A stretch of 64,000 bases of DNA, taken from contig JANFAH010000004.1 in assembly GCA_024663395.1 (NCBI GenBank), positions 434,001 to 498,000 of the forward strand. Direction: 5' to 3'. Source of the stretch: Pisolithus tinctorius. Lineage: Eukaryota; Basidiomycota; Agaricomycetes; Boletales; Pisolithaceae. Under the pieces are notes generated by a model. The model was not told the DNA's origin. It saw nothing but the letters and a program-made list of their open reading frames with translations, and did not search any database. The position numbers and the translations under genes were made by a program. Within the stretch, counting starts at the first letter, position 1. Every line of letters starts with the position of its first letter. Positions 34,399 to 64,000 of the stretch are shown here, piece after piece.

Positions 34399-34403
34399 CC
34401 ATT

Positions 34404-36164: not shown

Positions 36165-36358
36165 GGTTATGGGCCCTATGCTCTAGAACCTTCTGGACAT
36201 GCCATACAACATGTCATCGGTCTCTGCACGAATTTTCGACCCACTACACCCACTTCCTTGCCTCTAGCTAGCACTTTCTAGCAAGCAAAGGACCCATGTA
36301 GATGCTGTATGGGATGATCCTGTACAAATCTGGTCTACTCTGGCTTCCATCCACCTCC

Positions 36359-38636: not shown

Positions 38637-38947
38637 TCAGTGTGAGTCAAAGTGTGGTTCAGTGGTGAAAACCAACCAAAACCAACACAAAAGACAATGA
38701 AAGCAAGTGGTGGTGTGCATATGTGGTACCTAGATGGTAGAACCTTTTCTTTGGGAGGGTTTTTGTGAACTACAGCACTCAAAGACAAGTGCTGAGGGTT
38801 GGGGGTGCTCCTGACAAAGAGGGAGCAAGAATGTGAGAGATTGCAATGGGGTAGACTGCTGTCAGCCTACAGAAGGATGGATGATGACTTAATTCAATGT
38901 CCTAAGCTGCACTGAGCTCAGGGAGGACTTGGAGCAAAGTATATTGA

Positions 38948-39846
38948 TGTTAAGTATGGGTTTACCCTTGGGTGACCAGGCTTCAAGACCAGGTGACAGG
39001 GGCTAAGTCTGGGTGGACTGGAGTTAAGACCAGGAGACAGGGGCCAAGTCCAGTTGGACTGGAGTTGAGGCCAGAGGTCAGGGGTAAAGTCTGGAGGACT
39101 GGACTTAAGGCCAGGAGCATGGGAACAAGACTGGGACCATGGGAAACTGGACAGTCTTGGAGTGTGCACAGGGGGAAGCCAGTCCAGGGTTGGATCTACC
39201 TCCCTTGGTCTCAGCTTATGTGCTGTACCCTTATGCAAGCCAGGGAGAGGTCTGGGACAGGGGCCAGGGACAGCTTAAGGCTTGGCCTTAGCTATAGAGT
39301 AGACTTGAGGGGTAATATGGAGTTGAGGGTAATACTAAATTGATATTCTGACTGGAGTACTATGAAGTCTGTACAGGGGTTAAATACATGAGGCTGGTCC
39401 AGGGTAGCAAACATAGAGCTGGACTTGTTGATAAGCTATTAGAAAGATGATTAGCAAGAGGACAGCCACAGAGGCTGTGCCAAGACTAATAGTCAAAGTC
39501 TGGGTGACTGGCATAACCAGAGTCAGACACAGGTTTGTATAGTAAGCAAGATCAGGAAAGGGGACTAGACTAAATATAGTACAAACAAAGGAAAGCAGAC
39601 CAGAGTTATGTCTGGGTGACCTGGACATGGACCTGGGAGGACTGGGGTGGAGCAGCACAAGGCCAGGAGGCCAGAGTGGACCAGAGATAGGGGTAAAACA
39701 CCAGACTTGAGTTATTCAGGCTGGAGTTGGGTTATCTAGGGCCAGAGTTGGGTTTTCTAGGTCAGACTAGGACTGGGCCTGACCAGAGATAGGGGCTAGG
39801 GGTCCAGACTGGACTGGAATTGAGTCCAAGAGTCATGGATATGACA
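38948..39846 (-). repeat. Solo LTR, family I (Ty3/gypsy), TSD ATTGA
   Basis: 899 bp, TGTTAAGTATGGG to TGGATATGACA; ATTGA at 38943-38947 and 39847-39851. CpG-poor relative of 46767-47671. Sense is minus by analogy with the A LTRs. Confidence 0.88.
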
Positions 39847-39992
39847 ATTGATGATAGACAATGATAAGCAAAGTAGACAATAGTTAGACCCTTAATTAAG
39901 TCTCAACTATCAAAGCTGATGAATGAACTACTGAGTGATGATGAAATGTGAGCAAGAGGGGCTCTCTGATGCCTTCTTTCTTTAGCTATCTA

Positions 39993-42398
39993 CAGTGAGG
40001 GACAAAAGTGTTGCAATGTTTGTGAGGTGTGACTTGCTGCCAATGTAGCTTGGGCTATTCTGCACAGATGATCATGATACCTATACCATTGGAAAGGGGT
40101 GACTCTAAGCTTTCCAGAGCTCTAAGGCTCAGTCCAAACAAAGCAATACATGCCAAGATACACCCTATTCTTTCCAAAAAGTGCATTGCAACACTTTTGT
40201 CCCTGACTGGTGAAATAGTGAAAAGTAGCCTTTTGATGGGATTGAGGGCATGAAGGATGGGAAAATATGATTACATAATAAACCACATTGTCTTCCAGAT
40301 GATTTGTCAGCAAGCAAACAATGACAAACATTGGACTTGTACCATTAACCCTCCCTCTTTTACCACAACTCATGAAATCATCTCTCTAGCTCACATGGTC
40401 ATTTTCTCAAGGAATTCTTATCAAATACTGGTGGCCACCAGTGTCATCAGTATAACATGCTCTCAGAACCATCAGTCCCTTAAAAAACCTGCTGTCAGTC
40501 ATTCCCTGGACTGTTTTCCCCCCCCATGCCTGATGTGTTCTGGGACTAATCAGTACTTGGAGGGCTGAAAATGTTATGGAGGTCAATCAGGCACTTCAGA
40601 ACATGATGTACAAACCAGTCCCCTCTCAACCAATGCATTTCTGGCACAGGGACACTGGTATGGAGGTTGGGGGGGGAGACAAAACCTCCTTGTGCTCCAA
40701 ACACCCTAAGAGGGTTCACTAGATCTTGCTCTGATCTGAACTTTGGATGACTGGGGAAGGGATATTCAGTCACATGTGACCAAAGGCAATATTCAGGGCC
40801 AGATGGAAGCACAGGATTCTGCTCCATGGCAGTGAAGTAGCATATCCTCCTGATGACACCCAGGGATAAAGAGGATTTTGTCTTGCCCTAACTTCCATAC
40901 CACTGTCCCTGTGCCAGAAATGCATTGGTTGAAAGGGAGCTAGTTTGTCCACCATGTGCTGAAGTGCCAGATTGACCTCCATAACATTTTCAGCCCTCCA
41001 AGTACTGATTAGTCCCAGAACACATCAGGCATGGGGGGGAAAACAGTCCAGGGAATGACTGACAGCAGGTTTTTTAAGGGACTGATGGTCCTGAGACCAT
41101 GTTATACTGATGGTACTGTGGTGGCCACCAGTATTTGATAAGAATTCCTTGAGAAAATAACCATGTGAGCTAGAGAGATGATTTCATGAGTTGTGGTAAA
41201 AGAGGGAGGGTTAATGGTACAAACTCAATGTTTGTCATTGATTACATGCTGACAAATCATCTGGAAGATCATGTGGTTTATTATGTAATCATATTTTCCC
41301 ATCCTTCATGCCCTCAATCCCATCAAAAGGCTACTTTTCACTATTTCACCAGTCAGGGACAAAAGTGTTGCAATGCACTTTTTGGAAAGAATAGGGTGTA
41401 TCTTGGCATGTATTGCTTTGTTTGGACTGAGCCTTAGAGCTCTGGAAAGCTTAGAGTCACCCATTTCCAATGGTATAGGTATCATGATCATCTGTGCAGA
41501 ATAGCCCAAGCTACATTGGCAGCAATTCACACCTCACAAACATTGTGTGTCATGACCATGACACCAGCGTAAGCCCCTAACACCTACTCCACCCTCCTCC
41601 GACATGTTCCCACGCTTCTCCACCCTCTTCCGACATGTTCCCACGCTTCTCCGCCCTCCTCCGACGTGTTCCCACACTCCTCCCACCCTCCCAACACATC
41701 TCCACACCTCTCCGAGGTCCCCTGTCCATGTTCTGACCAACTCTGCTCAACTCTGCCCTAAGGTTGGTCATGTGGGCTGTTGGACTTGCAGCCCTGCATT
41801 CTAGATAGGGTTCTGCCCTTGTGTCGGTTTTCTCCATTCTTCTGCTCCTTTGGTATTTACCCTCTCTTCCTTGTTGTAGTAGTTTCCTTGTCTCAGTTAA
41901 GGTGCCCATCGTCCCTACCCTCTATCCCTTGTGTCAGAAGGACTCTAACCCACTATACACTTATTGGTTTACATTCCATACTGCACTGCCCTTGACCTAC
42001 ATTGTATATAAGGCCACATAGTACTCTGATGTAATCAGTATGAATATCAAATAAAGTCCCCACCTTCAACTCCCTCTCAGTCCCCTCCAGAGTTTCATCT
42101 CCACTTCCTCTGAGTCTGCTCCACCTCTGAAATACGAGGGCTGAGCTTGCACAAGGGGGCAGCGCACTAGCTGAACCCAACACCCTCTCATCCAACCTCC
42201 GACCTCTGATCTCCAGCTCTGAGACTTTCCTTCATACCCCTCTGCTCACTGTTCATCGAATATCTCATCACCCAGTGGTCGGATTCGCTTTGGACTTTGA
42301 CTGCTGTACTCTGCAGCCCAACCCGCTCCAACTCCGCCCTAAGAAGGAGCCAGGGGTGTTGTCCGACTTTGACATTGTGACACTTTTGTCCCTCACTG
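39993..42398. mobile_element. Palindromic (foldback) Tc1-like element 3, TSD TA, with nested solo LTR
   Basis: Starts CAGTGAGGGACAAAAGTG and ends with its reverse complement; TA at 39991-39992 and 42399-42400. Without the LTR (41548-42374 plus one TTGTG) it is 1574 bp, nearly the same as foldback element 1. The arms are inverted copies of each other (75-codon stretches at 40029 and 41306 differ at two residues), meeting near 40775. Internal sequence is homologous to elements 1 and 2, although the termini differ. Confidence 0.88.
41548..42374 (+). repeat. Solo LTR of element B family, TSD TTGTG
   Basis: 827 bp, TGTCATGACCATGACACC to CCGACTTTGACA, flanked by TTGTG (41543-41547, 42375-42379). 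Contains the ~31-bp tandem repeat (about 41580-41690), a TATATAA box near 42005 and AATAAA near 42050. It retains CpG, unlike the foldback element around it. Confidence 0.93.
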
Positions 42399-43773
42399 TA
42401 AGTACAGTGATTTATATACAGTACAAGGGCATTGCCTATGGAAAACAAGGTACAAACACTTGGTAAGTGATTGGTAACTGATAAGTAAGGAATGTAAGTG
42501 GTGGGTAATCATCTTAGAAAGCATTGGTGAGCATTGGTAAGGATAAGTAAGCCAAAAAGTGAAGAATCAGTAAGCAAAGTTGAAAGATTGGTAAGTATTG
42601 GTAATAGGTGAGTCAAGGACAGTCAGAATGTCAAAGTATGAGTCAAGTAATGTCAGGAACTGGGAAAGTGCACTGGAATTGCATTAGGGGGAGGCTGTGC
42701 ATGTCACGTCTCAAAGAGATTGCTTCTAGGCCAAAGTGGGACAACAGAGACACAGCACCAATCTGATGCCAATATAGTACATCCAAAAGCAGACAGGGTG
42801 AGTCAGATGTCAACAGGGGTCAAGCTTTGGGGGTCTGTGGGGTGACAGGAACATAGGGGATTGCAACTTTCCCCCCCAACTGTCCTCTCAGTGAAGCAAA
42901 CAAAAACTTCATGAATGAGGCTCTGTTGGAAGCTAGGATGAAAGGGGAGTGTCTTCTGCTGTATCTTGCAACAAGGAGGCAAGATGTGCATCATTCTCAT
43001 CATGGATGTGATCAGGGAGAGTGGAGAACAGTAGATTACACTGTAGCTGTTGCAATTTTGGAAGAATGATGGATGAGATTGGTGTGAAGATGTTGCAGGG
43101 AGCAGGGAGGAAGGAGGAAGGATCCATATGCTTCTTGGATGGGAGAGACTGAAATGACCACATAAGATCTTTCTAACCAAATGACAAACCTGAGGTGACC
43201 AAAGAATGTCCTCCTAGAGGTCATACTGACAAAAAGAACATGCTGTCCAAGCTGGATGGGCTGAGAGGGGGCAGATGAACATGGGATGTACCAGGACACT
43301 TCAGGATGGAAGCTGGTAGGAATTCCTGGTAGATATATGTAGCCATGGTCCCTAGCAAAGGGGGAAAGTGAAATGATTGATGTGGAGGCAGCCATATCAG
43401 AAGAATTAGTGAAATGAGCATCTTTTGGAGGGAGTGCTGTAGAAACATGTGGAGTGTGCAGATCCTTTCCAATTTTGGAAGGTAGGATTGCATGGCTGAG
43501 CACTACACATGAGTGTGGGGTTGGTGTCAGTCTCTGCAGAAGTGGTGGAGATATGTCAAAAACCAGAATGCCATACATGGGTGCTTAAGAATTTTTACTT
43601 GCACTAAACTTGCTTCCTTCTTTTTTCTTTGGCATTGATGACCCATTCTTGTGCAAAGGATGACTGCCAATGTTTCTGGGAGTCATTTTACACATGAGGG
43701 CTATAGTCTTCATCTCAATTCATCAGCAGTATCCATATCCACCTCACCAAACACCTTTGGTGTGTGACATTGG

Positions 43774-44460
43774 GTCTGTGAGCATGCTTCCTGTGACATT
43801 TTGAAAACATTCTCACTGGTATGACATTCACAGTCCTCAGGCAATTTTGATATCTCATCACAATGGATAAGGCAAATGGGGCAAGGGTGATTTGACATCA
43901 CACCACATATGAGTGCCATGACTGCTCTGAGTGACAAAGATTGTGAGCCTGCATTCATGATATTTTGGGCAGCATATCCACTTACTGCTCTTCATAATCA
44001 GCTGAAAGAATTAGTATGGTAGGAAAAAGTCAGTGTGCAATGCCATCCCAACACATTACCCAATAGCCAGTTTTTGAGTACTCTGATATTGTATCAAGTA
44101 TCTTCTTGAATGATTCATGCCAAACATGATCCTTGGCAAATGATTTCTTTCCAGAGTACTTGTCTTCCTTCACCTATTAGAAGTGCAATACAGAAAGTCA
44201 GCCAGTGTACTCAACACTGTCAATGAAGGAACTTATGATTGGTAACCACTGGACTACATGGCCACCACCTAAACCTTCACCATTACAGATCCAAGTAGGT
44301 GGATTTGCAATCTGCACAACAACTGGATACCCTTTTTGTCAACCAAATGACAACAACTTCGCTTTATCAGCATATAAAACAAATGCTAGAACTTTGCCAT
44401 ATGAAGGTAGATTATGTCAGCAACAGGAAAGCTTAAGGGTGTCCAAAGGACCCTAAATCA
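43774..44460 (-). pseudogene. Plavaka-like transposase, central part, with an intron
   Basis: Minus strand: YGKVLAFVLYADKAKLLSFG, KGYPVVVQIANPPTWICNGE, GLGGGHVVQWLP, VWHESFKKILDTISEYSKTG and LFPTILILSADYEE. An intron (43985-43927, GTAAGT to CAG, 59 nt) then joins in frame to AVMALICGVMSNHPCPICLI, the Cys-x2-Cys block typical of Plavaka. It ends at the E insertion (43773). The transposase cuts and pastes elements of the CACTA group. Stops in several places; dead. Confidence 0.82.
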
Positions 44461-44538
44461 ACTCCTATAGCTCTAGGGAGCTTGGGATTATACCAGACTA
44501 GAGCCCAGTGTGAGTAACCAATGGATTGTGATGAGGTA

Positions 44539-44591
44539 CAGCAGCTCAAAAAACTGTCTGCATGTTTGTATGTTTTACATTAGTTATGATC
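44539..44591 (+). repeat. Remnant of a foldback-element terminus
   Basis: CAGCAGCTCAAAAAACTG and the following CATGTTTGTATGTTTTACA match the first ~55 bp of foldback element 1 after a TA. No second terminus is visible, and the surrounding 44461-44820 has no gene. Confidence 0.6.
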
Positions 44592-44820
44592 TATGCATTA
44601 CTGCTTGATGGTTAAATGTGTAGTGTATGTTTTGTACTAGCTGTGTCTTTGTGAATGAGAAAACTAAGGAAAGGGACTGGGCGAAAAACCAGAGGTTTTT
44701 CTGGCCCTAAGCAATGGCCCAAAGATGTCCTTGAGCTGAGCTGTGGTTCCTAAAGGGTAGGAGTTAGTGATGCATCCAGCAAAGCTTGAGGGCCAAGGAG
44801 GAAGGAGCTAAGTTACTTAC

Positions 44821-45391
44821 TGTTAAGTCTGGGTCTTCACCAGTCCAAGGCCAGTCCAGAGTCTGGTTGGGGGTCAGAGGGTAATATGAGGTACTAAGGG
44901 ATTTGGACTGTTGGACTTAGTGACTGATGGCACAGTGCTATTCCCTTGCATGGGCTGTAGTCTGGTTGAGAGGCAGAGGGGACCAGGTTATGACAAGACT
45001 AAGTTGATTTCAGACTGAGGCTAAACAGATTATCCTATGGCTTAAATACTAGAAGTAACCTAAGTGTAATGTAGCACCAGAGATCAGTCTGCACTGGTAC
45101 AGCAATGATTGGTAAACATATTGGTAAGTAGTGTTACAAAGAATATTATCAAGCAAGAGTATGAACAAAGGGATTACTGGGAACTGGGGCAGGACTAGTG
45201 GCTGGGCCAGGTATTACACCAGCCTGGTACCAACTGAGCAAAGAACTCAATTGGGCACTGCCTTGCAGTGCCTCATGAGCTAACACATTTCTGGGTCAAA
45301 GGGTTAAGGCCAGGACCAGGGCAAGGGTTGGATGAGACTGGTTGAGACCAGCATAGAGCCAGTCTAGGGTGGTCTGGACACAGTTGTGACA
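44821..45391 (-). repeat. Solo LTR, element A-like, TSD CTTAC
   Basis: 571 bp, TGTTAAGTCTGGG to CAGTTGTGACA, flanked by CTTAC (44816-44820, 45392-45396). Internal sequence (CATGGGCTGTAGTCTGG, TTGATTTCAGACTG) matches the M1 LTR. CpG-poor. Confidence 0.88.
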
Positions 45392-45399
45392 CTTACAGC

Positions 45400-46766
45400 T
45401 CAATGTACTAGGGGGAGCATGTAGTGCTTGAATTTTTCCAGTATTGTTGGTTCTGTTTGGAGGAATGGGGCTAATATCAGGGCATGGTGGCAGAGGTAGA
45501 GTGTGAAAGAATCTCCAGTCCACCTTCCCATGGTTTTGACTATGTCAAAGGGGACTCCTTTGAGTAGGTAAAACAAGGTTCCTCCAATCCATAGGCTGTG
45601 TCCTTTCAGAGATGGAATCTCTTTGTGAGTCTTGGTGATCATTGTGAGCTTTTTGGATACCTCAGCTTTGGAGAGGGGACATATGCCTGTTGCTGGGAGG
45701 TACCAGGTGAACAGGTGGCCTGCTCATTGGCTGGGTTCAGATGGATGTGGTTCTCTAGAGCACATAAGGGATCTGTCACTGATGAAACTTGGTGTGGCAT
45801 GCATTGGACTGTTTCTCCTTTCTGATCACATTTTGTAGTGGGGAGGTGGAATACTAGCACAGGTAGGCCATTGTGGTCATGTGTGAGTTTGAATCCTGCT
45901 CAGGTGATGTGTTTGGCAGGTTTGAAACTCTGTATGGTGGGCACTGTGAACTCTCCCAGCCTGGCTATGCAGTAGAAGGACATGACTAAGCAGGTGAAAA
46001 TGGCTGCATTGCATGGGTCATTGTGGTCAAACAGACTGTGGAATACCACTAAGATGTTGACTGTGAACAGGGCTCTCCAAGGGTGCTTGGATGTGTTTGG
46101 AGCAAGTCTTGTAGTGCCCTCAAGTATCACTTTGTATTCAGCCTCATTTATGTCCCAGCTGCAGCCATGGACAATATGCCAGGCTCTGATTCTGGCTGCA
46201 TAGTTGGCTAGGGTGGAACTAGAGTGAGTACCAGCAGAACTCACTAGGAAAGTGGTGAGTGTGTTGGAGGATATTGGACATCTGCTCTCATCAGGGATGT
46301 TGTTCAGATCGTGGAAGACATGGAATACTAAGAGGCTGGTTCCATATAGCTCTTTAGTGGAGTCTGTCCATGAGGCTCCAATTATGCTGGTTATCCTGTC
46401 CACTGTGGATTGTGGGAGGGGAGAGAGCACTGTCAGGTGTAGTGGGAGGTGGGCAGGATGCCATAGGATTAATCTTTCTTTGGCTAGACAGTGGGGCTGG
46501 AGGTGTGAAATGGTGGGGGTGAGGTGGGGATGGTAGGGTTTTGGTTTCTGGGTCATATTTGGGTCTGTAGTGCTGATGGGTGTGTTGTCTTTGGTTATGC
46601 TGTTTTCAGTACTTGGGGTTGATGACTTGTTGAATGAGTTGATCAGAAGCCTGTTTGTCTGTGACCAGTCTAGCCTTGGCTTCTTTTTGGCATGCAACAT
46701 TGTTAATTGCCTGGGCTGGTTGGGTAGTGTAGTAGCCATCTCTCTGCACCCTGTGTTCTGCAGGGG
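45400..46766 (-). pseudogene. Tyrosine recombinase of a DIRS/Ngaro-like retroelement
   Basis: Minus strand. A Pro/Thr/Ser-rich N-terminus is followed by WTDSTKELYGTSLLVFHVF (SAM-like core-binding domain) and the first catalytic Arg in CIARLGEFTV (about 45955). A frame-shifted middle follows. The C-terminal box is KGHSLWIGGTLFYLLKGVPF, then MGRWTGDSFTLYL with the nucleophile Tyr and HHALILAPFLQ (about 45590-45480). HxxR has become HxxW (CGG to TGG), so it is inactive. The frame stops at TGA after MLPLVH. Such enzymes integrate circular DNA without target duplications. The RT of the same element is at 47677-48613. Confidence 0.8.
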
Positions 46767-47671
46767 TGTCAAGTACGGGTTTACCCTCAGAGGGACCAGG
46801 CTTCAAGACCGGGTGACAGGGGTTAAGTCCGAGTGGCCAAAGTCAAGGCCGAGAGACAGGGGCCAAGTCCAGTTGGACCGGAGTTGAGCCTGGAGGTTAG
46901 GGGCTAAGTCTGGAGGACCAGACTTAAGACCGGGAGTGCAGGAATAAGGCCAGTAGCATGGGAAACCGACTGGTCTTGGAGTGCGCACAAGGGGAAGCTG
47001 GTCCAGGGTTGGATCTACCTCCCTTGGTCTCAGCTTATGTGCTGTACCCTTATGCAAGCCGGGGAGAGGTCTGGGACAGGGGCCAGGGATAGCCTAAGGC
47101 TCGGCCTTAGCTATAGAGTAGACTCGGGGTGTAGTACAGGAGTTGAGGGTAATACTTAATTGATATTCTGACTGGGGTGCTACAAAGTATGTACAGGGGT
47201 TAAATACATGAGGCTGGTCTGGGATAACAAACATAGAGCTGGACTTGTTAATAAGCTATTAGCAAGAAGATTAGCAAGAGTGTGGATAGCCACAGTGGCT
47301 ATGCAGAGGCTAATAGCCAAAGTCTGGGTGACTGGCATAAGTGGGGTCAGACACAGGATATGTACAGTAAGCAGGGTTAGACAAAAGGACGAGACTAAAT
47401 ATAGCACAAACAAAGGAAAACAGACCGGAGTTATGTCCGGGTGACCTGGACATAGACCTGGGAGGACCGGGGTGGAGCAGTGCAAGGCCGGAAGGCCAGA
47501 ATGGACCAGAGATAGGGGTAAAAGACCGGACTTGAGTTATTTAGGCCAGAGTTGGGTTATCTAGGGCTGGGACTGGGTTTTCTAGGCCAGACTAGGACCA
47601 GACTTGACCGGAGATAGGGGCTAGGGGTCTGGACTGGACTGAGTCCAAGTCTGAGAGTCATGGATATGACA
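46767..47671 (-). repeat. Solo LTR, family I, TSD AGGGG, CpG-retaining copy
   Basis: 905 bp, TGTCAAGTACGGG to TGGATATGACA, flanked by AGGGG (46762-46766, 47672-47676). It separates RT/RNase H from recombinase in the retroelement. More CpG survives than in the copy at 38948. Confidence 0.92.
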
Positions 47672-47676
47672 AGGGG

Positions 47677-48613
47677 ATAAAGGGGTGTTGAAGTTGAAAA
47701 TGACATGCTTAAGTTTGAGAGGGAGGGGGATTGGAGGTAGGAGGAGAGCATAGGAGTTGTATTCACCCATTGAAGGGCAGTCTGCTGGGTTCTCTCCACT
47801 TGGTATGTATCTTGTGTGGACACCAAGGATGCTAGAGCAGTTATCAGAAGTGAAGTTGTGGATGTGTTTAAAGACCTCATTTGTCTCTCTGTTCTGATGC
47901 CTGCTGACCCACCAGCCTTCAACAACTCCTGAGTTGTCCCCATGGGCAAGGACATGGGATGGAGCATGGAGTATAGAGCTGATTGTGTGAATGAGCAGCT
48001 CAAAGCTGATGGCTTCTGCCCATCCAATGTCCTGGTGCTTCCCTCCTTCTGACTGCCAACCTGGGTTGAGCCTCCAGGCTCTCCATCATGTGTCAATAAT
48101 GATTGGTGATGCCAAAACCAGAGCTAGCATCAGAGAACACTCTGAGGTCTGTGAGTGTGTGGGGGGGTGTGATGGGTCAGATGACTCTGCCTGTTTGAAG
48201 AACATTCATCCACCATTCTAGGTCCATTTGTATTTGTTTGTCTGGTTGGTGGGGCATGAAAGGTTTTGGCATGCATATGGCTGCCATGCACTCGGGGCTG
48301 GTGAGGTACACATGACCTTTGGGGATGACAGCAGATGCATGCAACAGTTTGCCATATAGCTCTTGTATGTCTTGTAGCATGTGAGTTAGTCTCTTTCACC
48401 ATGAGTGGATGGTGTGCAGGTACTTTTCTACTTTTCCCTTGCTTAGAGATACAGTCATATCTTTGAGATTCCAGAGGAAACCTATGTAGATTGTTGAGTG
48501 TGTGAATGGTTGATCCTTCTCTGCCTCCCATGGGATTCCTAGCTCATGGGAGAGGTGGTTGATGTCTGTGAAGCTGTATGTGAACTCAGCATTGTGGTCT
48601 GATCTGGGTGAGG
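47677..48613 (-). pseudogene. DIRS/Ngaro-like reverse transcriptase C-terminus and RNase H
   Basis: Minus strand: LSHELGIPWEAEKDQPF, IYIGFLWNLKDMTVSL and YLHTIHSW, then TGA (48396-48398, Trp expected). ELYGKLLHASAVIPKGHVYL and LEWWMNVLQTGRV follow, then in another frame RNase H with GDNSGVVEGWW, HTRYIPSGENPADCPS (about 47800). Block order is that of the RT-RNase H of tyrosine-recombinase retroelements of agaricomycetes. The palm and fingers, including the YxDD motif, are absent: sequence stops at the B LTR (48614) and does not resume on the far side of B. Confidence 0.8.
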
Positions 48614-49459
48614 TGTCAAAGTCAGACAACACCCCTGGCTCCTTCTTAGGGCGGAGTTGGAGCGGGTTGGGCTGCGGAGTACAGCGGTCAAAGTCTGAAG
48701 CGAATCTGACCACTGGGTGGTGAGATATTTGTCAAACAGTGAGCAGAGGGGTATGAAGGAAAGTTTTGGAGGCTGAGGTTGGAGTCAGAGCTGGAGGTCA
48801 GAGGTCAGAGGTCAGATGAGATGGTGTTGGGTTCAGCTAGTGCGCTGCCCCCTTGCGTGAGCTCAGCCCTCATATTTCAGAGGTGGAGTGGACTCAGAGG
48901 AAGTGGAGACAAAACTCTGGAGGGGACTGAGAGGGAGTTGAAGGTGGGGACTTTATTCGATATTCGTACTGATTACATCGGAGTACTACATGGCCTTATA
49001 TATGATGTAGGTCAAGGGTGGTGCAGTATGGAATGTAAACCAATAAGTGTATAGTGGGTTAGAGTCCTTCTGACACAAGGGATAGAGGGTAGGGACGACG
49101 GGGACCTTAACTGAGACAAGGAAACTACTACAACAAGGAAGAGAGGGTAAATACCAAAGGAGCAGAAGAATGGAGAAAACCGACATGAGGGTGGAACCCT
49201 ATCTAGAATGCAGGGCTGCAAGTCCAACAGCCCATGTGACCAACCTTAGGGCAGAGTTGAGTGGAGTTGGTCAGAACATGGACAGGGGACCTCGGAGAGG
49301 TGTGGAGATGTGTCAGGAGGGTAGGAGGAGCATGGGAACACGTCAGAGGAGGGTGGAGAAGCGCGGGAACATGTCGGAAGAGGGTGGAGAAGCGTGGGAA
49401 CATGTCAGAGGAGGGCAGAGTAGGTGTTAGGGGCTTACACTGGTGTCATGGCCATGACA
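48614..49459 (-). repeat. B 3' LTR
   Basis: 846 bp, plus-strand ends TGTCAAAGTCAGAC and GGCCATGACA. On the minus strand it holds a TATATAA box (plus about 48996-49002) and AATAAA (about 48950). It includes a ~31-bp tandem repeat with three imperfect units (about 49330-49425) and an extra AGGTCAG repeat that makes it 20 bp longer than the 5' LTR. The polypurine tract complement GTATCCCCCCC is at 49460-49470. Confidence 0.92.
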
Positions 49460-49487: not shown

Positions 49488-50343
49488 CTACAATGGAGGT
49501 GAGTGAGGTCCAGGTTTATGAGGATAGCGAGCATGGTAAGCAGCCAACAACTCAGAGGCACATTCTAACTCCGTTGCCAACACCCAAGAGGTCTTGTCTT
49601 CAGTATTCTCATAGCCTGCCCAGCGGACTAGATACAACAACTGACAATGATGGTGGCAGTGATCCACCTTTGAGTCGAGGATCTCCGAAATCTCGTACTC
49701 AAGGTCACCATCCACCTCAACAGGCAGAGGCAGAGGTTGGTGTTGATCAGGGAAGGGGTTTGGAGTAGCAGGCTCTAACTGCGACATGTGAAAGACAGGG
49801 TGGATGGCCCACATTGCATCAGGTAAGCGGAGGGTGATGGAGTGCGTACCAGGCCTAGCTATGATAGCATAGGGGCCCAAGTTCTTCTCCGCAAGTTTAG
49901 CTGAAGGGCGGGTGGAGCAGAAGTACTTGGCCTTGACATAAGCCTGGTCACTGACTTTGAACTCTGGTGGCAGAATGCATCTAGCATCAGCTGGACCTTG
50001 ATAGCAGAGTTGAGTGGCAGCCATCTCAGTGTGGAGGAAGTCATGCAGGGCGGAAAGCTCCACAACATAGTTATGGGCCTTCGGAGAGGTGAGATCGTGG
50101 TCAGAGTAAACTGACAAGTTTGGGTGGTACCCCTTATTAGCGAAAAAGGGAGAGACTCCAGTAGTAGCACTTGGCACATTATTACAAGCAAACTCCACTA
50201 GTGGGAGTAACTCCGACCAATCATCTTGCTGATAGTTACAGTAGGTGCGGAGATACTGCTCAAGGGTCTGATTCATGCACTCTGTCTGGCCATCGCCTTC
50301 TGGGTGGTAGCCCGATGTAAAATGAAGGCACATATCTAAGGCC
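49488..50343 (-). pseudogene. B pol, integrase C-terminus and chromodomain
   Basis: Minus strand, open for 281 codons: HFTSGYHPEGDGQTECMNQ (end of the integrase core with the catalytic Glu lost in the motif shown as TECMNQ; A has TERTNQ), then WSELLPLVEFACNN, AKLAEKNLGPYAII (GPY/F) and a chromodomain starting SEILDSKVDH with YLVRWAGYEN and SWVLATELE. It ends in PHKPGPHSPPL and a stop at 49488. The N-terminal part continues at 58360, across element A. The reading frame itself is undamaged here. Confidence 0.87.
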
Positions 50344-50871
50344 TGTCATAGCCATGTCTCGACCCCAGCCGGACTCAGCCTCGCACTCACTTAGTCCGGC
50401 ATCGGCCTCGCCTGTTTGCTATCCCCAGATGTCCTAGCGCGGTGAACACTGCTTTGCAGTGTCTGTCATTTCGGTTAAGTCCTGTCCCCGGTCCTGTCCC
50501 CGGTCTGCCTGTCCCGGTCTCCGTTACCTTAGTCATACGTTAGTAATCCTTGTCTTACCAATCCTCTTAGCAATCCTTGCGAGACCGGCATTACTGGTCT
50601 CCGTACTATAGTTACTTCTAGTATATAAACTCGTAGATACTCGGCCTGTAGACCTCAGTCTGAAATCAACTAAGTTACCCGTGATAACCCTGTCTCGGCC
50701 TTGGACTCGGACTGGGACCCACGCAAGGGAATAGCGCTGTACCTTCAGTTGCTAAGTCCAAGCAGTCCACTCATCTGTACCTTCGTCTTTGCCCCTGACT
50801 CCGATCCCTCGGCCTCGTGCCCGCTTCGGTCTCCGGTCCGGTCTCAACCCGGACAATCCTCGTACTTGACA
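50344..50871 (+). repeat. A 5' LTR
   Basis: 528 bp, TGTCATAGCCATG to CGTACTTGACA. TATATAAA at 50622-50629 is the likely core promoter. The sequence after it, GTATTTCAGACTC, lacks the TGG expected of a tRNA primer site. Confidence 0.94.
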
Positions 50872-50909
50872 GTATTTCAGACTCGCCACTTGTGTGGGTC
50901 TAAACCATC

Positions 50910-52729
50910 ATGGCAACCAAGACTCGTTTTCAACCTCCCCGTGGCTGCTCTGCCACCAATCCTGACTCCGCTTCAGCCAGTGGGGCTCGCCGCGAGACAG
51001 CACTAGCTGCCTTGGGCACCACTAGGCGCTCCCCAGGTACCGTCAGCCCTTTCAGGGGCTTCTCAGCCCGCACATCCAACACCCCCACCCCACGTCGTCC
51101 CACTGCTCCCATCCCTGAGGGTGACCCTGGCGATGATGGGCCGGGCGACGATGATGACAACAACCCAGACGATGATGACCCCGATGATAATGGTCCCGGT
51201 GATGATAATCCGGATGAGGATGATCCAGAGGACGAACCGGACTTCCCAGACCTGGACACCGAACCCGCGGTCGCGGTCTTCGACAGTCTCGCGAAGGCCA
51301 TCAAGCTATTGGCTCGCAACTCCCGTACTAGTCCTGAGTCCTCAAGCAGGACCAAGCTACGCGAGCCCGATACCTTTGATGGCACCGACCCTAAGAAGCT
51401 CCGCGCATTCTTCATCCAGTGCGAACTTAACTTCCAAGACCGACCCCGGGCTTTTAGGACCGACCGCGCCAAGGTCATCTTCGCCCAATCATACCTCAAG
51501 GGCATGGCTCTTGAGTGGTTCGAGCCGGACTTGCTCGGGCTCGACGACCCCGATGATCGGCCTCTCTGGATGGACTCCTGGAGGGAGTTCGTCCTGGAGC
51601 TACAAACCACCTTCGGACCCCATGACCCGGTTGCTGACGCCGAAAGTCAACTCGACCACTTGCACATGAAAGATAGCCAGCACATCAATAAATACGTAGT
51701 CGACTTCAATCGGCTTGCCTCGCAAGTCCGAGGCTACGGCAATGGTGCGCTGCGCCACCACTTCTACTCCGGACTCCCAGACCGGATTAAGGACGAAGTT
51801 TGTCGAGTTGGCAAACCCCGGACACTTCACGAGCTCCGCCACCTCGCCCAGGAGATAGATGCGCGCTATTGGGAGCGCAAGGAAGAAGTCCAGCGGGCGA
51901 ATAAGCACCAGGGCTCGTCCAACTCTGGTAACAACAAGTCCGGTGGCTCCAGCAACAATAGTCAGCCCAAGACCGGCCAAGACAAATCCAAGGCCGGCAA
52001 CAACAACAACTCCGGATCTTCTCCCAAGCCGGCTTCATCGAAGCCGGTGTAAGTTATGTATTTAGCGATCCTAGGGACTGCAGGGGACTCCTAGGGCTTG
52101 ATAGGAATGGGTCTAGTTCGACCCAAAGGGACTCTGAGCTTGGATTGGTGAAAAAGAGACAAATGAGTGACTAGAGTTGGTCAAAACGAATGGAGTGGGG
52201 AAATGAGCGAATAACAGCGTCTGGAGGTCGTCTGGGAGTGCCTCAGCAAGGGCTTGTCGCAGTCTCTCTTTCGCAGTCTTCGATTTCGCAGTCTTTGCAG
52301 TCTGGTTCCCCTTTTTTTTGTTGTGTACTGTAGACCTACACTAGTGCGCAAAAAATGCTGACTAAGCTACCAAAAATGCGCCACCAAGGTAGGCTAAGTA
52401 TCACTAATGTAAATCAATGCAAAAACACAATAGAAAGGATAAAATAATTAAATCACCTCAGTAGGGAGTACTTATTCCCTACACCGGGCAATAGTAATAA
52501 CAGCAATTCGTCCAAGCCCGAGCCTAGCAAACTCGGCAAAGATGGAAAGCTTACCCCCAAGGAACGCAAGCATCGCATAGACGGAAACCTCTGCATGTTC
52601 TGCGGAGGGTCCGGTCACTTCGCTGACAAATGCCCCAAGAAGACCGGAAAGGCCAAAGCTCGCGCTGCGGCTACCACTGAGGCCGCACCGGCCTCGGGCT
52701 CGGGTACTACCCCCGAGACAAAAAAATAG
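50910..52729 (+). pseudogene. A gag, split by a 436-bp insertion
   Basis: ATG 50910 (MATKTRFQPPRGC) follows a 38-nt leader. Codons 1-379 contain a low-complexity N-terminus, a D/N/P acidic stretch (residues about 70-125), and the Gag core (KLREPDTFDGTDPKKLRAF, YLKGMALEWFEPDLLGLD, HINKYVVDFNRLASQVRGYG). The insertion 52048-52483 follows. Without it and one CCGG the frame continues exactly: S/K-rich linker, zinc knuckle CMFCGGSGHFADKC (about 52596), and lysine-rich end TKK before TAG 52727-52729. As it stands the protein would end shortly after residue 379. Confidence 0.88.
52048..52483. mobile_element. 436-bp insertion in A gag, CCGG duplication
   Basis: Starts TGTAAGTTATG, ends TTATTCCCTACA. 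CCGG at 52044-52047 and 52484-52487, where M1 and G have uninterrupted gag. TGTA/TACA ends form a 4-bp inverted match with weak further similarity. T/A-rich in the right half. Could be a solo LTR or a MITE; no relative elsewhere in the window. Confidence 0.8.
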
Positions 52730-52767
52730 GTAGCAGCTCCCAGGACTCCGCACAATCTGGGAGCTGC
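52720..52767 (+). promoter_or_regulatory. A gag/pol -1 frameshift signal
   Basis: Slippery A AAA AAA (52720-52726) in phase with gag codons ACA AAA AAA, stop TAG 52727-52729, 6-nt spacer in total, then an 11-bp perfect stem: GCAGCTCCCAG (52733-52743) with CTGGGAGCTGC (52757-52767), loop 13 nt. The -1 frame from here is open into protease. Homologous signals in M1 (9552-9599) and G (14342-14389) have different but fully compensated stems. Confidence 0.82.
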
Positions 52768-55700
52768 GTTGACTCCGGTTGTGCAAACTTGGAGGCTCGT
52801 CTCAACGCGTCCGCTCTTTCCAGTCCGAACTCTTTAACCCTGTATGTCACCATAGAAAACCCAGAAATACCTCGGCTTCGTACTTTAGTGGACTCCGGTT
52901 CCACCCATTGTTTTATAGATAATCAGTTTGTTAATCAACACTCGTTTACCCCTTACTCGGTCTCACCAATCCGACTCCGGCTCTTCGATGGAACGTCCAC
53001 CTTCACCATAACCCAAGCAGTAGATGTCAATATCCGCTTCACATCCGGCGATGTCACCCCGGTAACCCTGTATTTAGCCCCATTGGATTCTGAGTGTAGA
53101 ATAGTTCTCGGACATGACTGGCTCACCCGCTACAATCCGTTGATTGATTGGGTACTGAGTAGTCTAACATTCCGGACTCCTGCACAAGGAATGCCAACCC
53201 CGTCAACACCCCCTGTAAGCCCGGTTCCCACCGGCCTTCCTGACTCCGGTCCTAGTGACCAACCCGGCCTCGTGCCATCTGTACCGGTCTCCGACTCTCC
53301 GACTCGCACCCCTCTGAAGGCCCCTCTCGTTTCCCTAATCAATGCAGCCGCTTTTGTGCGCGCCTGCAAACTAGAAGGGTCCGTCCAGTTCCAACTTCAG
53401 CTCCGTCCCTCGGACTCAGCTCAAGCCCGATCGGCCTCGGCTTCCCCTCCTCCGGCCTTACCCAATGTACCGGAAGAGTACCATGACTTTGCTGATGTAT
53501 TCAGCAAGGCCAAGGCCTCGGCACTCCCGCCTCACTGGGAGTACGACCTGAAAATAGAGCTTGAAGAAGGAACTACCCCACCTCTCGGCACCATCTACTC
53601 CCTGTCCCCGGTTGAGCTCCAAGCTCTCCGGACTTTCATCGATGAAAACCTTACTACCGGATTCATTCAGCCAACCTCTTCCCCTTATGCTGCACCGGTC
53701 CTCTTTGTCAAGAAGAAGGACGGCTCCCTCCGGCTTTGTGTAGACTTCCACGGCCTCAACAAAATCACTAAGAAGGACCGATACCCGCTACCGCTCATCT
53801 CCGACCTCTTGGATTCACCAAGCTGAGCCAAGATCTATACTAAAATTGATCTTCGGCATGCCTACCATCTCGTCCGGATTGCCCCGGGCGATGAATGGAA
53901 GACCGCCTTCCGGACTCGGTATGGATCCTACGAGTGGTTAGTGATGCCTTTCGGCCTCACCAATGCCCTGGCCGCCTTCCAGCGCTTCGTCAACACTATC
54001 TTCGCAGATATGTTAGATGTCTGTGTGGTCATCTACCTAGATGACATCTTGATCTATTCCGGAGATAGGGAGTCTCATAAGCAGCATGTCCGAGAAGTCC
54101 TCCGCCGGCTTCGGCTTCACGGCCTTTATGCGAAGCCGGAGAAATGTGAGTTCCACTCGGACTCGGTCGAATATCTCGGATTCCACCTCTCCCCTGCTGG
54201 CCTCACGATGTCGAAGGAAAAAGTCCAGACCATCTGCGACTGGCCTGAGCCTCGCAAGGTCAAAGACATACAGTCCTTCCTCGGCTTCGCCAACTTCTAC
54301 CGCCGGTTTATCTTTAATTACTCGGACATCGTCGTACCGCTGACTCGGCTTACCCGCAAGGGGGCTCCTTGGAACTTCTCCGAGGAGTGCCGCCGGTCAT
54401 TTAATAACCTCAAGGCCGCCTTCACTACCGCACCGGTCTTAACTCATTTCATCCCCGGGGTCCCCATCACCGTCGAGACCGATGCCTCAGACTATGCCAT
54501 CGCTGGCATCCTTTCTATCACCTGCGGCAATGGCCAGATACATCCGGTCGCATTCTACTCCCGGACTCTGACGGCCCCGGAATTGAATTATGACACCCAC
54601 GACAAAGAATTGCTTGCTATATTCGAAGCATTCCGGACCTGGCGCCACTACCTTGAGGGCTCGGCCTCGCCGGTCGACGTTGTTACCGACCACAAGAACC
54701 TCGAGTACTTCTCCACCTCTAAAGTACTCACCCGCCGCCAAGCTCGCTGGTCAGAATTCCTGTCTCAGTTCAATATGATCATCAGATTCAGACCCGGTAA
54801 GCTTGGGGCTAAGCCCGACACCCTAACTAGACGATGGGACGTCTACCCCAAAGAGGGGGATAGCGGCTATGCCCGAGTGAACCCGCAAAACCTGAGACCG
54901 GTCTTCACCCAAGAGCAACTAGCGGTCTCCCTTCATGCAACTTACCTAGAGTACCCGGTCTTACGAGCAGTTGCCTTAATGGATGTCAAGAAACTTCATA
55001 ATGATATCCTGACCGCACTGCCGAACGACCTGGTCTCACAAATCCGTCTCTCCGACATGTCTGATCCCCGGTGGTCAGTAGATGACACTGGCTTCCTTCG
55101 TCTTGATGGAAGGATCTACGTGCCGGACTCAAATGATCTCCGTCTTAGGGTCTTGCGCCTCAAGCATGACCACCCTCTGTCCGGCCACTTCGGCCAAAAC
55201 CGCACTTTAGAACTCATACGGCATGAGTATACCTGGCCCGGCCTCAGGACCTTCGTCAAGGACTATGTCCGCTCTTGCACGGCCTGTGCTCGGGCTAAGG
55301 TTCCCTGCCATCGGCCTTACAGCCTTCTCAAGCAACTCCCGGTGCTGGAGAAGCCATGGAATTCCATCTCTATGGATTTCATCGAGCAGCTCCCGGCCTC
55401 AACCGGCTTCACGGCCATCCTCGTAGTAGTTGACCGGCTCTCCAAGCAGGCCATATTCATCCCCACTCATGATACCATAACAGCCCCAGAACTCGCCAAA
55501 TTGTTCCTACTCCATGTCTTTTCGAAGCACGGAGTGCCGGCCCATGTAACCTCAGACCGAGGCTCGGAGTTCGTCTCTCATTTCTTCCGGTCGCTCGGCA
55601 AGGCTTTAGACATGCGCTTACACTTCACCTCGGGCTACCACCCCGAAGGTGATGGCCAGACCGAAAGGACCAACCAAACCCTAGAACAGTACCTCCGAGT

Positions 55701-56445
55701 ATACTGCAACTACCAGCAGGATAACTGGGCCGACCTACTACCTTTGGCCGAGTTCGCCTACAACAATGCCCCTAGCGCTACTACCAGTGTTTCACCCTTT
55801 TTTGCTAATAAGGGCTACCATCCCAACATCTCAGTATACCCTGAGCGTGATCTTACCTCCGCTCGGGCTCGCGATTATGCAGTCGATCTAGATGCATTGC
55901 ACCAGTACCTATGTGAGGAGATGACCCTCGCACAACAACGCTACCAAGGACCGGCCGATGCTAAACGCATGCCGGCCCCGGACTTCAAGGTCGGTGACCA
56001 GGTGTATGTCAAAGCTAAATATTTCCGGTCAACCCGGCCTTCCAAGAAACTCTCAGAGAAGAACCTTGGGCCGTACCCGGTCATAGCTCAGGCCGGTACC
56101 CACTCTTTCACACTGCGCCTGCCGGACTCAATGTGCGCGGTGCACCCGGTCTTCCATGTTTCCCAACTCGAGCTGGCCGTCCCTAACACCATCCCGAACC
56201 AGACTCAACCACCACCCCCACCAGTCGAAGTCGACGGCGAACTAGAGTTCGAGGTAGCAGAAATCCTCGACTCCAAGGTCAACCAATGACGCCAGTGTTG
56301 GTTACAGTACTTAGTCCGGTGGTCCGGCTATGAAGGGACCGATGAAGAGACCACTTGGGTACTAGCTACAGAGCTAGACAATGCCTCTGAACTTGTGCAA
56401 GAGTTTCATTCTCGCTATCCTAATAAACCTGGCCCCTTCCAATGA
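52726..56445 (+). pseudogene. A pol: protease, RT, RNase H, integrase, chromodomain (two TGA stops)
   Basis: -1 frame after gag. Protease [15 protein letters not shown] (52893). RT from [11 protein letters not shown] through [20 protein letters not shown] 53824-53826 (Arg/His/Gln position in DSPS-x-AKIY), and the active site YLDDILIY (about 54037). RNase H ETDASDYAIAGIL. Integrase zinc finger (HDHPLSGHFGQNRT, CTACARAK), core DFIEQLPAS, TSDRGSEF and ERTNQ giving D, D, E, then KNLGPYPVIA (GPY/F). The chromodomain starts AEILDSKVNQ, then TGA 56287-56289 (CGA expected), then WLQYLVRWSGYEGTDEETTW and the end at TGA 56443-56445. Both internal stops fit CpG decay; all catalytic residues remain. Confidence 0.92.
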
Positions 56446-56623
56446 GCACTGGTCTCAACCGGCCTCAGTTTTCTGTTCTGTTTTCTACCGGTAGCTAGTT
56501 TTCTTGATCTCTTACTTACTTTGTTTTCTCTTTCTTGTCTTCTCTTACTGTACTATAGAGGACCGGACACCGGACACCGGACACGTGACATTGGCAAAAG
56601 AAGAAACTACAAGACTGCTAAGA

Positions 56624-57689
56624 CTACTCGGCTTCGGCCATGGAATCGTCCTCCCCCTCGGCTTCCTCGTCCCCTTCACCCTCGGCCTCAGCCTGCAGCC
56701 AGGCAGCCTCCTCACGCAACTCATCCGAGTCGAGCTCGGATGACCCGGTATCTGAAGGGGTGACCGCCACCCCGAAGCCAAAGGACTCGTCGATTATGGA
56801 CTCGAGCGCGTCGGCTATGCGGCCCGAGTTCTCAGCCACGGTCTCATGAAGCTCGAAGAGCCCCGCCAGGTTGTTGGCAATGAGCCCCGCAACATCAATA
56901 AGCCGCTCGAGCTTTTCTTCTAAGCCCGAGGGTCCCCCTGCGCTGGCCTTCCTCACCCCACTCCCACCGGCCTCGGGCTCGTCGATCTCCAGCACCTCGG
57001 TCGGCCTGGACTTCGCCCGCTTCTTCTGGCTTGGCCCAGGCTCTGGCGTCTCTTCGTCGGCCTTCCGCTTCTTCCCTTTGTCGGCCTTGACCTTGGGCCC
57101 GGCCTCGGCGTCCTTCCCATCTCCCGGCCACCGGCACTTGCCCTTCGATAGGTTGCACCGAACGCAGGCTACCTGCTTCTTATTGCCGTCTACGAGGAAC
57201 TTGCAGGCGACCTTGGCTCGGGAGCAGTGAGTACATCTAACAGAGGAGGTTAAATTAATAAATAAATAAAAAAAACGCACAAGGTTGAAAGAGTACTCAC
57301 CCGGGGTCCATAACCACCTTCCTCACCTCTCCCCCGGCCTCATCTCCCTTGTCGGCCTCGGCCTTACGTTTCCGCTTGGCCTCATTTTCCTTCTTGGCTC
57401 TGCACTTCTCCTCCTCCTCGCGTATCCTTTGCTCCTCAGCCTCCCGCGCTATTCTCTCGGCCTCGGCCTTCTCCCTCGCTGCCCTCTCGGCCTCAAGCCG
57501 AGCCTGCTCCTCCTGCCGGGCTTGTTCAGCCGCCTTTCGTCGCTTCCTCTCCTTCGCCTTGGCCCTCATCGTCTCTTCCTCGTTGTCGGTGTCGTACTTG
57601 ATGGCGTCTTCCGACACCTGGGACCAGTCGATCACGACTCGGCCTTCGAGGTTGTTATCGGCAGAAATGATCGGTCAAGGGTCGGACAT
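56624..57689 (-). pseudogene. Antisense gene of chromovirus A: two-exon Zn2Cys6-like nuclear protein (one TGA)
   Basis: Opposite to gag-pol, between pol and the 3' LTR. ATG 57689-57687 follows a CT-rich tract. Exon 1 runs to 57301; intron 57300-57237 (GTGAGT...TTAG, 64 nt) joins in frame to exon 2, which stops at 56626-56624. Total 333 codons. Codon 5 is TGA (57677-57675), where CGA fits. Features: WSQVSEDAIKYD near residue 21; an A/E/R/K-rich coiled coil (about 40-105); a cysteine cluster C-x2-C-x6-C-x12-C-x2-C-x6-C (residues 131-164), the spacing of fungal Zn2Cys6 DNA-binding domains; basic nuclear-signal-like KGKKRKAD and QKKRAKSR; a helical segment (GLEEKLERLIDVAGLIANNL); a very acidic C-terminus. 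I infer a regulator; no enzyme motif is seen. The same gene is partly present at 63771-64000. Confidence 0.75.
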
Positions 57690-57826
57690 GATGGTTAGGA
57701 TGAGAAAGAAAGACGCAAAGGGCTTAGCGAGCCACAAGTATCATTTTTTCGAACTCAGCCAACTTTCGGACTCAGCCCACCACTTTCGCAGGGGTCTCAT
57801 GGGTTCGACCCCTAAGAGGGGGATAC

Positions 57827-58354
57827 TGTCATAGCCATGTCTCGACCCCGGCCGGACTCGGCCTCGCACTCACTTAGTCCGGCATCGGCCTCGCCTGTTT
57901 GCTATCCCCAGATGTCCTAGCACGGTGAACACTGCTTTGCAGTGTCTGTCATTTCGGTTAAGTCCTGTCCCCGGTCCTGTCCCCGGTCTGCCTGTCCCGG
58001 TCTCCGTTACCTTAGTCATACATTAGTAATCCTTGTCTTACCAATCCTCTTAGCAATCCTTGCGAGACCGGCATTACCGGTCTCCGTACTATAGTTACTT
58101 CTAGTATATAAACTCGTAGATACTCGGCCTGTAGACCTCAGTCTGAAATCAACTAAGTTACCCGTGATAACCCCGTCTCGGCCTCGGACTCGGACTGGGA
58201 CCCACACAAGGGAATAGCGCTGTACCTTCAGTCGCTAAGTCCAAGCAGTCCACTCATCTGTACCTTCGTCTTTGCCCCTGACTCCGATCCCTCGGCCTCG
58301 CGCCCGCTTCGGTCTCCGGTCCGGTCTCAACCCGGACAATCCTCGTACTTGACA
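57827..58354 (+). repeat. A 3' LTR
   Basis: 528 bp, identical ends to 50344-50871, with about ten substitutions (for example TAGCRCGG, CATACRTTAG, CCTCGYGCCC), all of the CpG transition type. Only 137 bp separate it from the antisense ATG. Confidence 0.94.
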
Positions 58355-63390: not shown

Positions 63391-63585
63391 GAGGTGGCCA
63401 AAATCTTTGACTGCAAGGTTGACCAGCATTGCTGGTGTTGGCTTCAATACTTAGTCCATTGGACTGGCTATGAGGGGACTGGCAAAGAAACTACTTGGGT
63501 ACTTGCCACTGAGCTAGACAATGCTTCTGAACTCATACAGGAGTTCCATTCCCACTACCCCAATAAACCCAGCCCTTTCCAATGA
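63391..63585 (+). pseudogene. A-like chromovirus copy A2: chromodomain end of pol
   Basis: Plus strand, opens directly at the B LTR: EVAKIFDCKVDQHCWCWLQY, then LVHWTGYEGTGKETTWVLAT, and ends NKPSPFQ before TGA 63583-63585. It aligns with A 56250-56445 but lacks the TGA at the QRQ position and has lost CpG. The upstream part of this copy is not found left of B. Confidence 0.85.
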
Positions 63586-63770
63586 GGACCAGCTTCAACC
63601 AGCCTCAGTTTCTGTTTCTGTTTCCTATTGGTATCTAGTTTCCCTTTGATCTCTTACTTACCTTGTTTTCCCCTTCTTGTTTCTTTTACTTTACTGTAGA
63701 ACACTGGACACCAGACACCAGACATATGACATTTGCAGGAGGAAGTAGCAAGGGCACTACACTACAAACA

Positions 63771-64000
63771 CTACTTGGCCATACCCTCATCTTCCCCTTC
63801 AGCCTCCTCCTCCTCATCTTCACCATGGTTCTTCAACCAGTTGGCTTCCTCACACAACTCATCAGAGTCGAGTTCAGATGAGCCTGAGTCTGAGGGGGAT
63901 ACCATCATCCTGAAGCCATACAATTTGTCAAGCAGGGACTCAAGTGCATTGGCAATCTGGCCTGAATTCTTGACTGCGGTTTCATGAAGCTCAAAGAGGC
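63771..64000 (-). CDS. Antisense gene of copy A2, C-terminal part (runs off window)
   Basis: Minus strand, open from the window edge to TAG 63773-63771 (76 codons). It aligns with the end of the antisense protein of A: LFELHETAVKNSGQIANALE, SPSDSGSSELDSDELCEEAN and an acidic end EDEEEEAEGEDEGMAK. The frame is uninterrupted although this copy has lost most CpG. It sits at the same distance and orientation relative to pol as in A, so the gene belongs to the element family and is not a chance insertion. The cysteine cluster would lie beyond position 64000. Confidence 0.7.
   Translation of the reverse strand, partial: LFELHETAVKNSGQIANALESLLDKLYGFRMMVSPSDSGSSELDSDELCEEANWLKNHGEDEEEEAEGEDEGMAK

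Follow-up and report, generated by a model that had tools for sequence, protein, structure and literature searches.

Our analysis demonstrates that a chromovirus of the fungus Pisolithus tinctorius contains, antisense to gag-pol and between pol and its 3' LTR, a gene of two exons (Table 1). Judged from the sequences compared, this is almost certainly a protein-coding gene of the element, which is under purifying selection across element lineages and is broken in part of its copies. The window, by which we mean the whole stretch of 64,000 nucleotides that was analysed (contig JANFAH010000004.1, positions 434,001 to 498,000), was set against the complete assembly of 92.5 Mb in 221 contigs. A preliminary description of this DNA had proposed the gene, and both its coordinates and its splice sites stand: splicing at 57300-57237 joins the two frames and creates a six-cysteine cluster with exactly the spacing C-x2-C-x6-C-x12-C-x2-C-x6-C that had been read from it. 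The same description missed that the fifth codon of the frame from 57689 is a TGA, because of which the window copy cannot make the protein from this ATG.

Table 1. Features of element A, its antisense gene and a second gene copy, in positions of the window
Feature	Position	Strand	Remarks
Element A	50343-58354	+	chromovirus with Ty3-type gag-pol; LTRs of 529 bp
5' LTR of element A	50343-50871	+	529 bp; 98.1% identity to 57826-58354
gag frame, Ty3-type capsid	50910-52052	+	Retrotrans_gag 1.1e-10, Ty3_capsid 7.4e-10
First open piece of pol: protease, beginning of reverse transcriptase	52789-53826	+	RVP_2 2.3e-07
pol: RT, RNase H, integrase, SH3_Tf2-1	53941-56289	+	RVT_1, RT_RNaseH, rve, SH3_Tf2-1
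Antisense gene, exon 2	56624-57236	-	has the six-cysteine cluster, the basic stretches, a predicted helix, the acidic tail and the stop
Antisense gene, intron	57237-57300	-	GTGAGT...TTAG, 64 nt
Antisense gene, exon 1	57301-57689	-	has the ATG, the acidic N-terminus and a long charged helix, as predicted for a homologue
Leader, antisense ATG to 3' LTR	57690-57825	-	holds the sense-strand polypurine tract; low diversity
3' LTR of element A	57826-58354	+	98.1% identity to 5' LTR
Second, diverged antisense-gene copy, part in window	63595-64000	-	72.7% identity to 56446-57826

The element that holds the gene, element A, is a chromovirus, as had been stated before: it possesses LTRs, gag, the order PR-RT-RH-INT and a chromodomain at the end of pol. 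The target site duplication AGGCC, read by eye, stands directly before the 5' LTR and after the 3' LTR. One stop lies inside the pol chromodomain of the window copy, and a related copy of the element matches Chromo (PF00385) at E=1.1e-11. A CCHC knuckle is present at about 52592, in a frame other than that of gag in the window copy; a missing gag zinc knuckle was therefore discarded as a reason for the existence of the antisense gene. Element A sits inside element B: the pol frames of B lie on the minus strand on either side of A. The earlier claim that element B lacks the gene holds, because its pol frame runs to 49488 and the repeat arm by which its LTR is recognised stops at 49459, which leaves no room for it.

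A second copy of the gene, which runs past the window (contig positions 497595-498963), had been described as keeping the same frame. It does keep the ATG, the splice sites and the six cysteines, but the frame is interrupted by at least two in-frame stops (read by eye). Element B adjoins this second A-like copy right after the end of B's pol (63395-64000; L041). The 5' part of the copy was not found left of B, where 30000-48700 holds two short LTR-like matches only, so the junction of the two is rearranged or 5'-truncated.

Two sets of gene copies were compared. The first comprises 40 copies chosen by similarity to the window gene (the best 40 of 355 first-look candidates scored); because of this choice a second set was checked, 20 copies chosen by pol alone from the best 40 of 967 pol candidates. 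All 60 aligned copies, 40 similarity-selected and 20 pol-selected, possess the antisense ATG as well as GT-AG at the matching place (donor GTGAGT in 57, GTAAGT in 3), and 59 of them have a branch-like YTRAY motif inside the intron. The length of the intron varies from 46 to 64 nt, leaving a remainder of 1, 2 or 0 after division by three in 28, 18 and 14 copies, and the phase of exon 1 is constant in 59 of 60; the frame is consequently maintained only if the intron is spliced out.

The frame is open in 42 of the 60 copies (324-348 aa). The preliminary description had counted a frame broken in most young copies as a sign against the gene; taken together irrespective of age, the copies have mostly open frames. 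In the similarity-selected set 26 of 40 frames (324-348 aa) run open to one shared stop column, 13 are broken and one further copy (L028) is open as far as its match end, whereas the 16 of 20 open pol-selected copies were called by length (332-346 aa). One spliced copy is identical over 332 aa to an independent public gene model, M404DRAFT_32831 of P. tinctorius Marx 270. Two pairs of gene copies on different contigs, L019/L021 and L016/L018, show 1 and 0 substitutions in the compared codons; L018 differs from L016 by small indels, which were masked. The pair L019/L021, in both of which pol is about 4 kb away, may represent either a segmental duplication or unmerged haplotypes.

The spliced frame is the one that selection has kept. 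Pairwise estimates of the Nei-Gojobori type for 26 intact copies (27 long frames less L028, which is cut by its match end; one of the 26, L018, has a short out-of-register stretch in exon 2) gave a median dS of 0.74, a dN of 0.12 and a dN/dS of 0.16, and the 16 intact pol-selected copies gave 0.146. The pairs are non-independent owing to recombination and shared ancestry, and at a dS of 0.74 saturation is near. Across copies dN/dS is thus 0.15-0.16, and not near 1, the value named beforehand as speaking against the gene. The other five frames of the same gap-free DNA yielded 1.43, 1.61, 1.32, 0.29 and 2.15, of which we take 0.29 to belong to the opposite-strand frame that shares its wobble positions with the antisense gene. 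Diversity at codon positions 1, 2 and 3 of the 26 intact copies is 0.136, 0.106 and 0.327. The 3' part of pol, assessed by a simpler counting of codon changes in 27 of 30 loci (L003 is mostly gaps), has a dS of 0.34 and a dN/dS of 0.078: the antisense gene is constrained, less so than pol. Uncorrected pN/pS is 0.39 in the closest pairs (9 pairs) and 0.22-0.29 in five wider bins, L002 with its exon-1 deletion being left out, which is the expectation if single copies decay freely. A chance reading frame with chance splice sites is ruled out by the dN/dS together with the conserved ATG, GT-AG and exon-1 phase. It has also to be considered that antisense transcription might count as RNA, through dsRNA and silencing, with the reading frame as a by-product. 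Antisense transcripts are indeed discussed as regulators for LTR elements in PMC7264820, but the low dN/dS, the frame-specific constraint and the conserved splice sites point to a protein, and we regard an RNA-only role as very improbable.

The gene belongs to the element. Among the best 40 of the 967 pol candidates, every copy that could be judged (38 of 38) carries it; the two left out are one pol match at a contig end and one more. Eighteen of these best 40 matches are gene copies of the similarity set, the window copy among them, and in two of the 18 about 4 kb of other sequence separates pol from the antisense gene; of the other pol matches, 20 of 20 examined carry it. Four loci were checked for their remaining frames, and in two of these gag (461 codons) and pol (1254 codons) are open. 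The antisense gene is open in both loci, and in one of them merely 51 nt of the 5' LTR are matched.

Outside these copies, three protein searches, with candidates restricted by length and shared words, returned 184 matches (the best 120 of them all from P. tinctorius), 41 matches (39 from P. tinctorius and 2 from P. orientalis) and 129 matches (the best 120 from P. tinctorius and P. orientalis alone). Homologues among the matches listed thus come from two Pisolithus species, and other species may have them too. The P. orientalis protein P0158 retains both the start MSKSRPI...DWTQ and the cluster, and P0152 retains the cluster with a different N-terminus. A tblastn search of IMG/VR viral contigs found no relative of the gene. 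A eukaryotic intron and a fungal-type motif are what one would expect of a host gene, domesticated or captured, that merely sits in elements. This origin is nevertheless hardly credible to us, given that the gene occupies the place between pol and the 3' LTR side in every testable copy and that the protein matches listed form one family in two Pisolithus species, with the genomic context taken from P. tinctorius.

The intact product of 332 aa (M404DRAFT_32831) has an acidic start, a helix at 37-117 (for the greater part a high-confidence prediction), the cluster at 131-166 with a net charge of +7, the basic stretches KGKKRK and KKRAK, which look like nuclear signals, a helix at 231-282 and a tail with a net charge of -18. 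With its six cysteines, the charges of cluster and tail and its long helices, the protein has the look of a nuclear, DNA-binding one. The six cysteine codons are preserved in 40 of 40 similarity-selected copies, broken ones included, with synonymous TGC/TGT changes; the pattern recurs in 18 of 20 pol-selected copies (one loss is accompanied by a stop, one occurs in an open frame) and in 108 of 120 annotated proteins, 12 being without the full pattern.

Zn2Cys6 domains follow the spacing C-x2-C-x6-C-x(5-12)-C-x2-C-x(6-8)-C, a range that the cluster meets. In small Gal4-type factors the cluster is followed by a basic linker, a helix and an acidic tail, and the Pisolithus protein resembles them in its cysteine spacing, basic flank, predicted helix after the cluster and acidic tail. 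It differs from Zn2Cys6 factors in a middle loop of 12 residues, in being borne by a retrotransposon and in having few basic residues between C2 and C3, where canonical Gal4-type clusters have more. The Zn2Cys6 likeness given in the preliminary description stands for the spacing and is suggestive beyond it. The Pfam profile Zn_clus (PF00172) stayed under its gathering cut-off, with a best E of 0.026 and E<=1 in 16 of 59 members; in a smaller test of six members it matched three, again missing the cut-off (best 0.067), and no Pfam family reached E<=1 for P0120 or for P0152 of P. orientalis. AlphaFold block means of pLDDT over the cluster are 34-54 in one model and 52-63 in a model of exon 2, and in the latter a helix follows each CxxC at this low confidence. 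Foldseek, run on this weak model, gave no match that reached E<=0.001 (a RING domain at E=7 came closest), and the PDB sequence search gave nothing below E=1.6; a fold assignment for the cluster was consequently dropped. Membership in Zn2Cys6 is, from its sequence, plausible and not proven. In public annotation the name 'Zn(2)-C6 fungal-type' is attached to 31 of 120 proteins listed.

Could the same accessory protein be something other than a transcription factor, with its six cysteines in another zinc fold? It might then have a structural or cofactor role, as a nucleic-acid chaperone, in nuclear import of the pre-integration complex, in integration targeting or as an anti-silencing chromatin factor. 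The missed Zn_clus cut-off and the Foldseek search without a fold match agree with such a role, as does the charged helix of some 80 residues, which is the longest confidently predicted part of the protein. On the other hand, gag already has a CCHC knuckle and pol a chromodomain, and a fuller PROSITE-type Zn2Cys6 pattern fits 110 of 172 homologues. We advance the structural or cofactor role tentatively, as a possible reading; for plant antisense ORFs, roles like those of retroviral accessory proteins have been proposed (PMC7264820).

The preliminary description also overlooked how diverse the antisense gene is. Between 56446 and 57690 it is about twice as diverged as pol or LTR, with the leader-side edge of this island near the ATG. 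In 25 of 30 loci (L003, L016, L019, L021 and L028 were left out of the diversity and distance analyses) distances average 0.089 for pol, 0.081 for the leader and 0.112 for the LTR; the exons reach 0.183-0.188, the noncoding gap past the stop 0.169 and the intron 0.294. The island persists when transversions are counted by themselves (pol 0.014, leader 0.016 and LTR 0.026 versus 0.048-0.062 in the exons), so that CpG decay was rejected as its sole cause, and dS is 0.74 in the gene versus 0.34 in pol under slightly different counting schemes.

The distances of pol and LTR agree with each other (Mantel r=0.63), those of the C-terminal part of exon 2 and the LTR do not (r=0.12, p=0.147), the zinc cluster is weakly correlated with the LTR (r=0.31, p=0.007), and the other pairs tested are weakly to moderately so (r 0.24-0.46). 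Among 15 of the 25 copies, those with intact frames, two C-terminal protein classes could be compared: their exon 2 distance is 0.168 within and 0.216 between classes, that of pol 0.082 and 0.083, and that of the LTR 0.101 and 0.104. As the classes differ in exon 2 and not in pol or LTR, gene versions have been shuffled among elements, and by these distances the versions seem to predate the pol and LTR lineages of today.

Such an island, with its excess of transversions and dS and with C-terminal classes spread over pol and LTR backgrounds, would also suit a protein that acts in trans on other copies, in copy-number or superinfection control, with the diversity reflecting selected distinct specificities. 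Yet at the protein level the zinc cluster has diverged least of all segments, and its pooled dN/dS is the lowest among three gene segments (0.130 vs 0.165 and 0.158), which speaks against diversified DNA specificity; its correlation with the LTR is weak. Moreover, selection is not needed for the diversity, because the noncoding gap and the intron share it and old recombining lineages suffice. We consider superinfection control unlikely.

The account that we favour, and about whose correctness as a whole we are evenly divided, is that this accessory gene of a Pisolithus chromovirus encodes a nuclear, DNA-binding feedback regulator, which works in the manner of HBZ and is built on a fungal-type zinc cluster. 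An antisense transcript would start in the conserved leader or in the 3' LTR and then be spliced; the leader is a candidate for the antisense 5' UTR and promoter, the promoter role being our inference. The intron would persist in the genomic sense RNA, as it reads as an intron on the opposite strand alone. The protein would enter the nucleus, dimerise, bind DNA and tune the transcription of the element's own copies, by activation or by repression. The roles put forward in the preliminary description, in which the protein governs its own LTR, silences rivals or counters host silencing, are speculative.

As to its target, the LTRs hold an excess of CGG/CCG triplets (z 4.1, 4.9); because the excess in pol (z 4.8) matches this, no target site is indicated, and the CGG-rich LTR was dropped as target evidence. 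The same triplets are far above shuffles in the gap 56446-56623 (z 6.4). The segment 57800-57829 before the 3' LTR, with the polypurine tract, is nearly invariant (diversity 0.005) and contains GGTTCGACCCC, which we take to be a B-box-like string; a tRNA-like B box in the leader was rejected, as ARAGORN calls no tRNA within 57500-58000.

The precedent for self-regulation by the antisense protein is drawn from retroviruses, in which HBZ, APH-3 and APH-4 are antisense proteins made from spliced transcripts that lower transcription from the 5' LTR (PMC10186651). HBZ and APH-2, -3 and -4 (HTLV-1 to -4) share with the Pisolithus gene the antisense orientation, the splicing, here predicted, and the position on the 3' LTR side. 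HBZ is a nuclear regulator that resembles a DNA-binding factor (PMC10186651), whereas for the Pisolithus protein nuclear location is inferred; likewise, an antisense promoter and an effect on the LTR have been demonstrated for HBZ/APH, while the Pisolithus gene is known from its sequence. The proteins themselves, bZIP or without such a domain on the retroviral side, are unrelated to that of Pisolithus, whose gene has long coding parts in both exons. Pfam listed 18 families for 59 proteins, none of them bZIP, and the likeness to HBZ is a claim about how the protein works only. That a spliced, LTR-linked zinc-cluster feedback regulator evolved in fungi independently of HBZ, that its alleles form an old recombining pool and that element lineages may thereby recognise or restrain one another is a more speculative extension, which we think possible and, taken together, rather doubtful.

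The position of the gene is familiar from plants. Ty3 elements of plants can carry an additional antisense ORF that lies between pol and the 3' LTR (aORF-3R: gene23 of Grande, RIRE2, TRP28 of Retand); such ORFs occur in most copies and are suspected to encode nuclear or DNA-binding proteins (PMC7264820, PMC11963269). According to PMC7264820 no clear resemblance to other proteins had been reported for them, with nuclear location and an SMC domain as hints; the TRP28 domain of Retand is predicted to bind DNA (PMC11963269). The Pisolithus gene shares with these its orientation opposite to gag-pol, its place between pol and the 3' LTR and its conservation in most copies; it is unlike them, as far as they are described there, in its fungal host, its other domain, an intron inside the coding frame and a measured dN/dS; furthermore, its element is a chromovirus, which Retand is not. 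The word 'intron' is absent from the main texts of PMC7264820 and PMC11963269, and the former calls for a look at antisense and spliced transcripts.

The gene brtn of Boty-like elements in Botrytis cinerea is reportedly the subject of Zhao et al. 2011 (Virology 417:248). Boty is a fungal LTR element with brtn as an antisense extra gene and a CHROMO domain in gag-pol (PMC4227169, PMC7264820, PMC8365987), so that from its description it resembles the Pisolithus case in being a chromodomain element of fungi with an antisense extra gene. In animals an antisense mRNA has been reported for a mussel Steamer-like element (PMC10974842). Among the literature matches listed, all open-licence papers, we saw Boty brtn and plant, retroviral and animal cases, and none of a fungal zinc-cluster antisense gene; the word 'antisense' is absent from the main texts of PMC3248453, PMC5689174, PMC10066745 and PMC10799480. 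Antisense extra genes as such are known, therefore, from plant elements and Boty, and a spliced, intron-split, zinc-cluster-like version in a fungal chromovirus appears, from the open-licence papers listed, to be new.

The function of antisense extra genes in LTR retrotransposons is treated as an open question in reviews (PMC7264820, PMC11963269). To this question the Pisolithus case brings a candidate DNA-binding domain, frame-specific selection and an intron that provides a strand-specific RNA signature, and the idea of HBZ-like self-regulation becomes directly testable outside animals, in an ectomycorrhizal fungus. The names 'Zn(2)-C6 fungal-type' borne by element proteins could moreover inflate counts of host transcription factors. 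In a paper on the genus, zinc-finger-domain genes and heterokaryon-incompatibility genes are the most frequent ones close to repeats (PMC10066745), and part of these zinc-finger genes may be the antisense gene described here.

Two repeat structures were observed in the window besides. Just past the antisense stop, at 56540-56600, lie CCGGACA-like tandem repeats, which are partly kept in two other copies compared. At 40014-41545 large nested inverted repeats, with arms of 427, 158 and 86 nt that are 92-97% complementary and a centre of 213 bases, form a long hairpin-like structure that adjoins an inverted B-type LTR copy.
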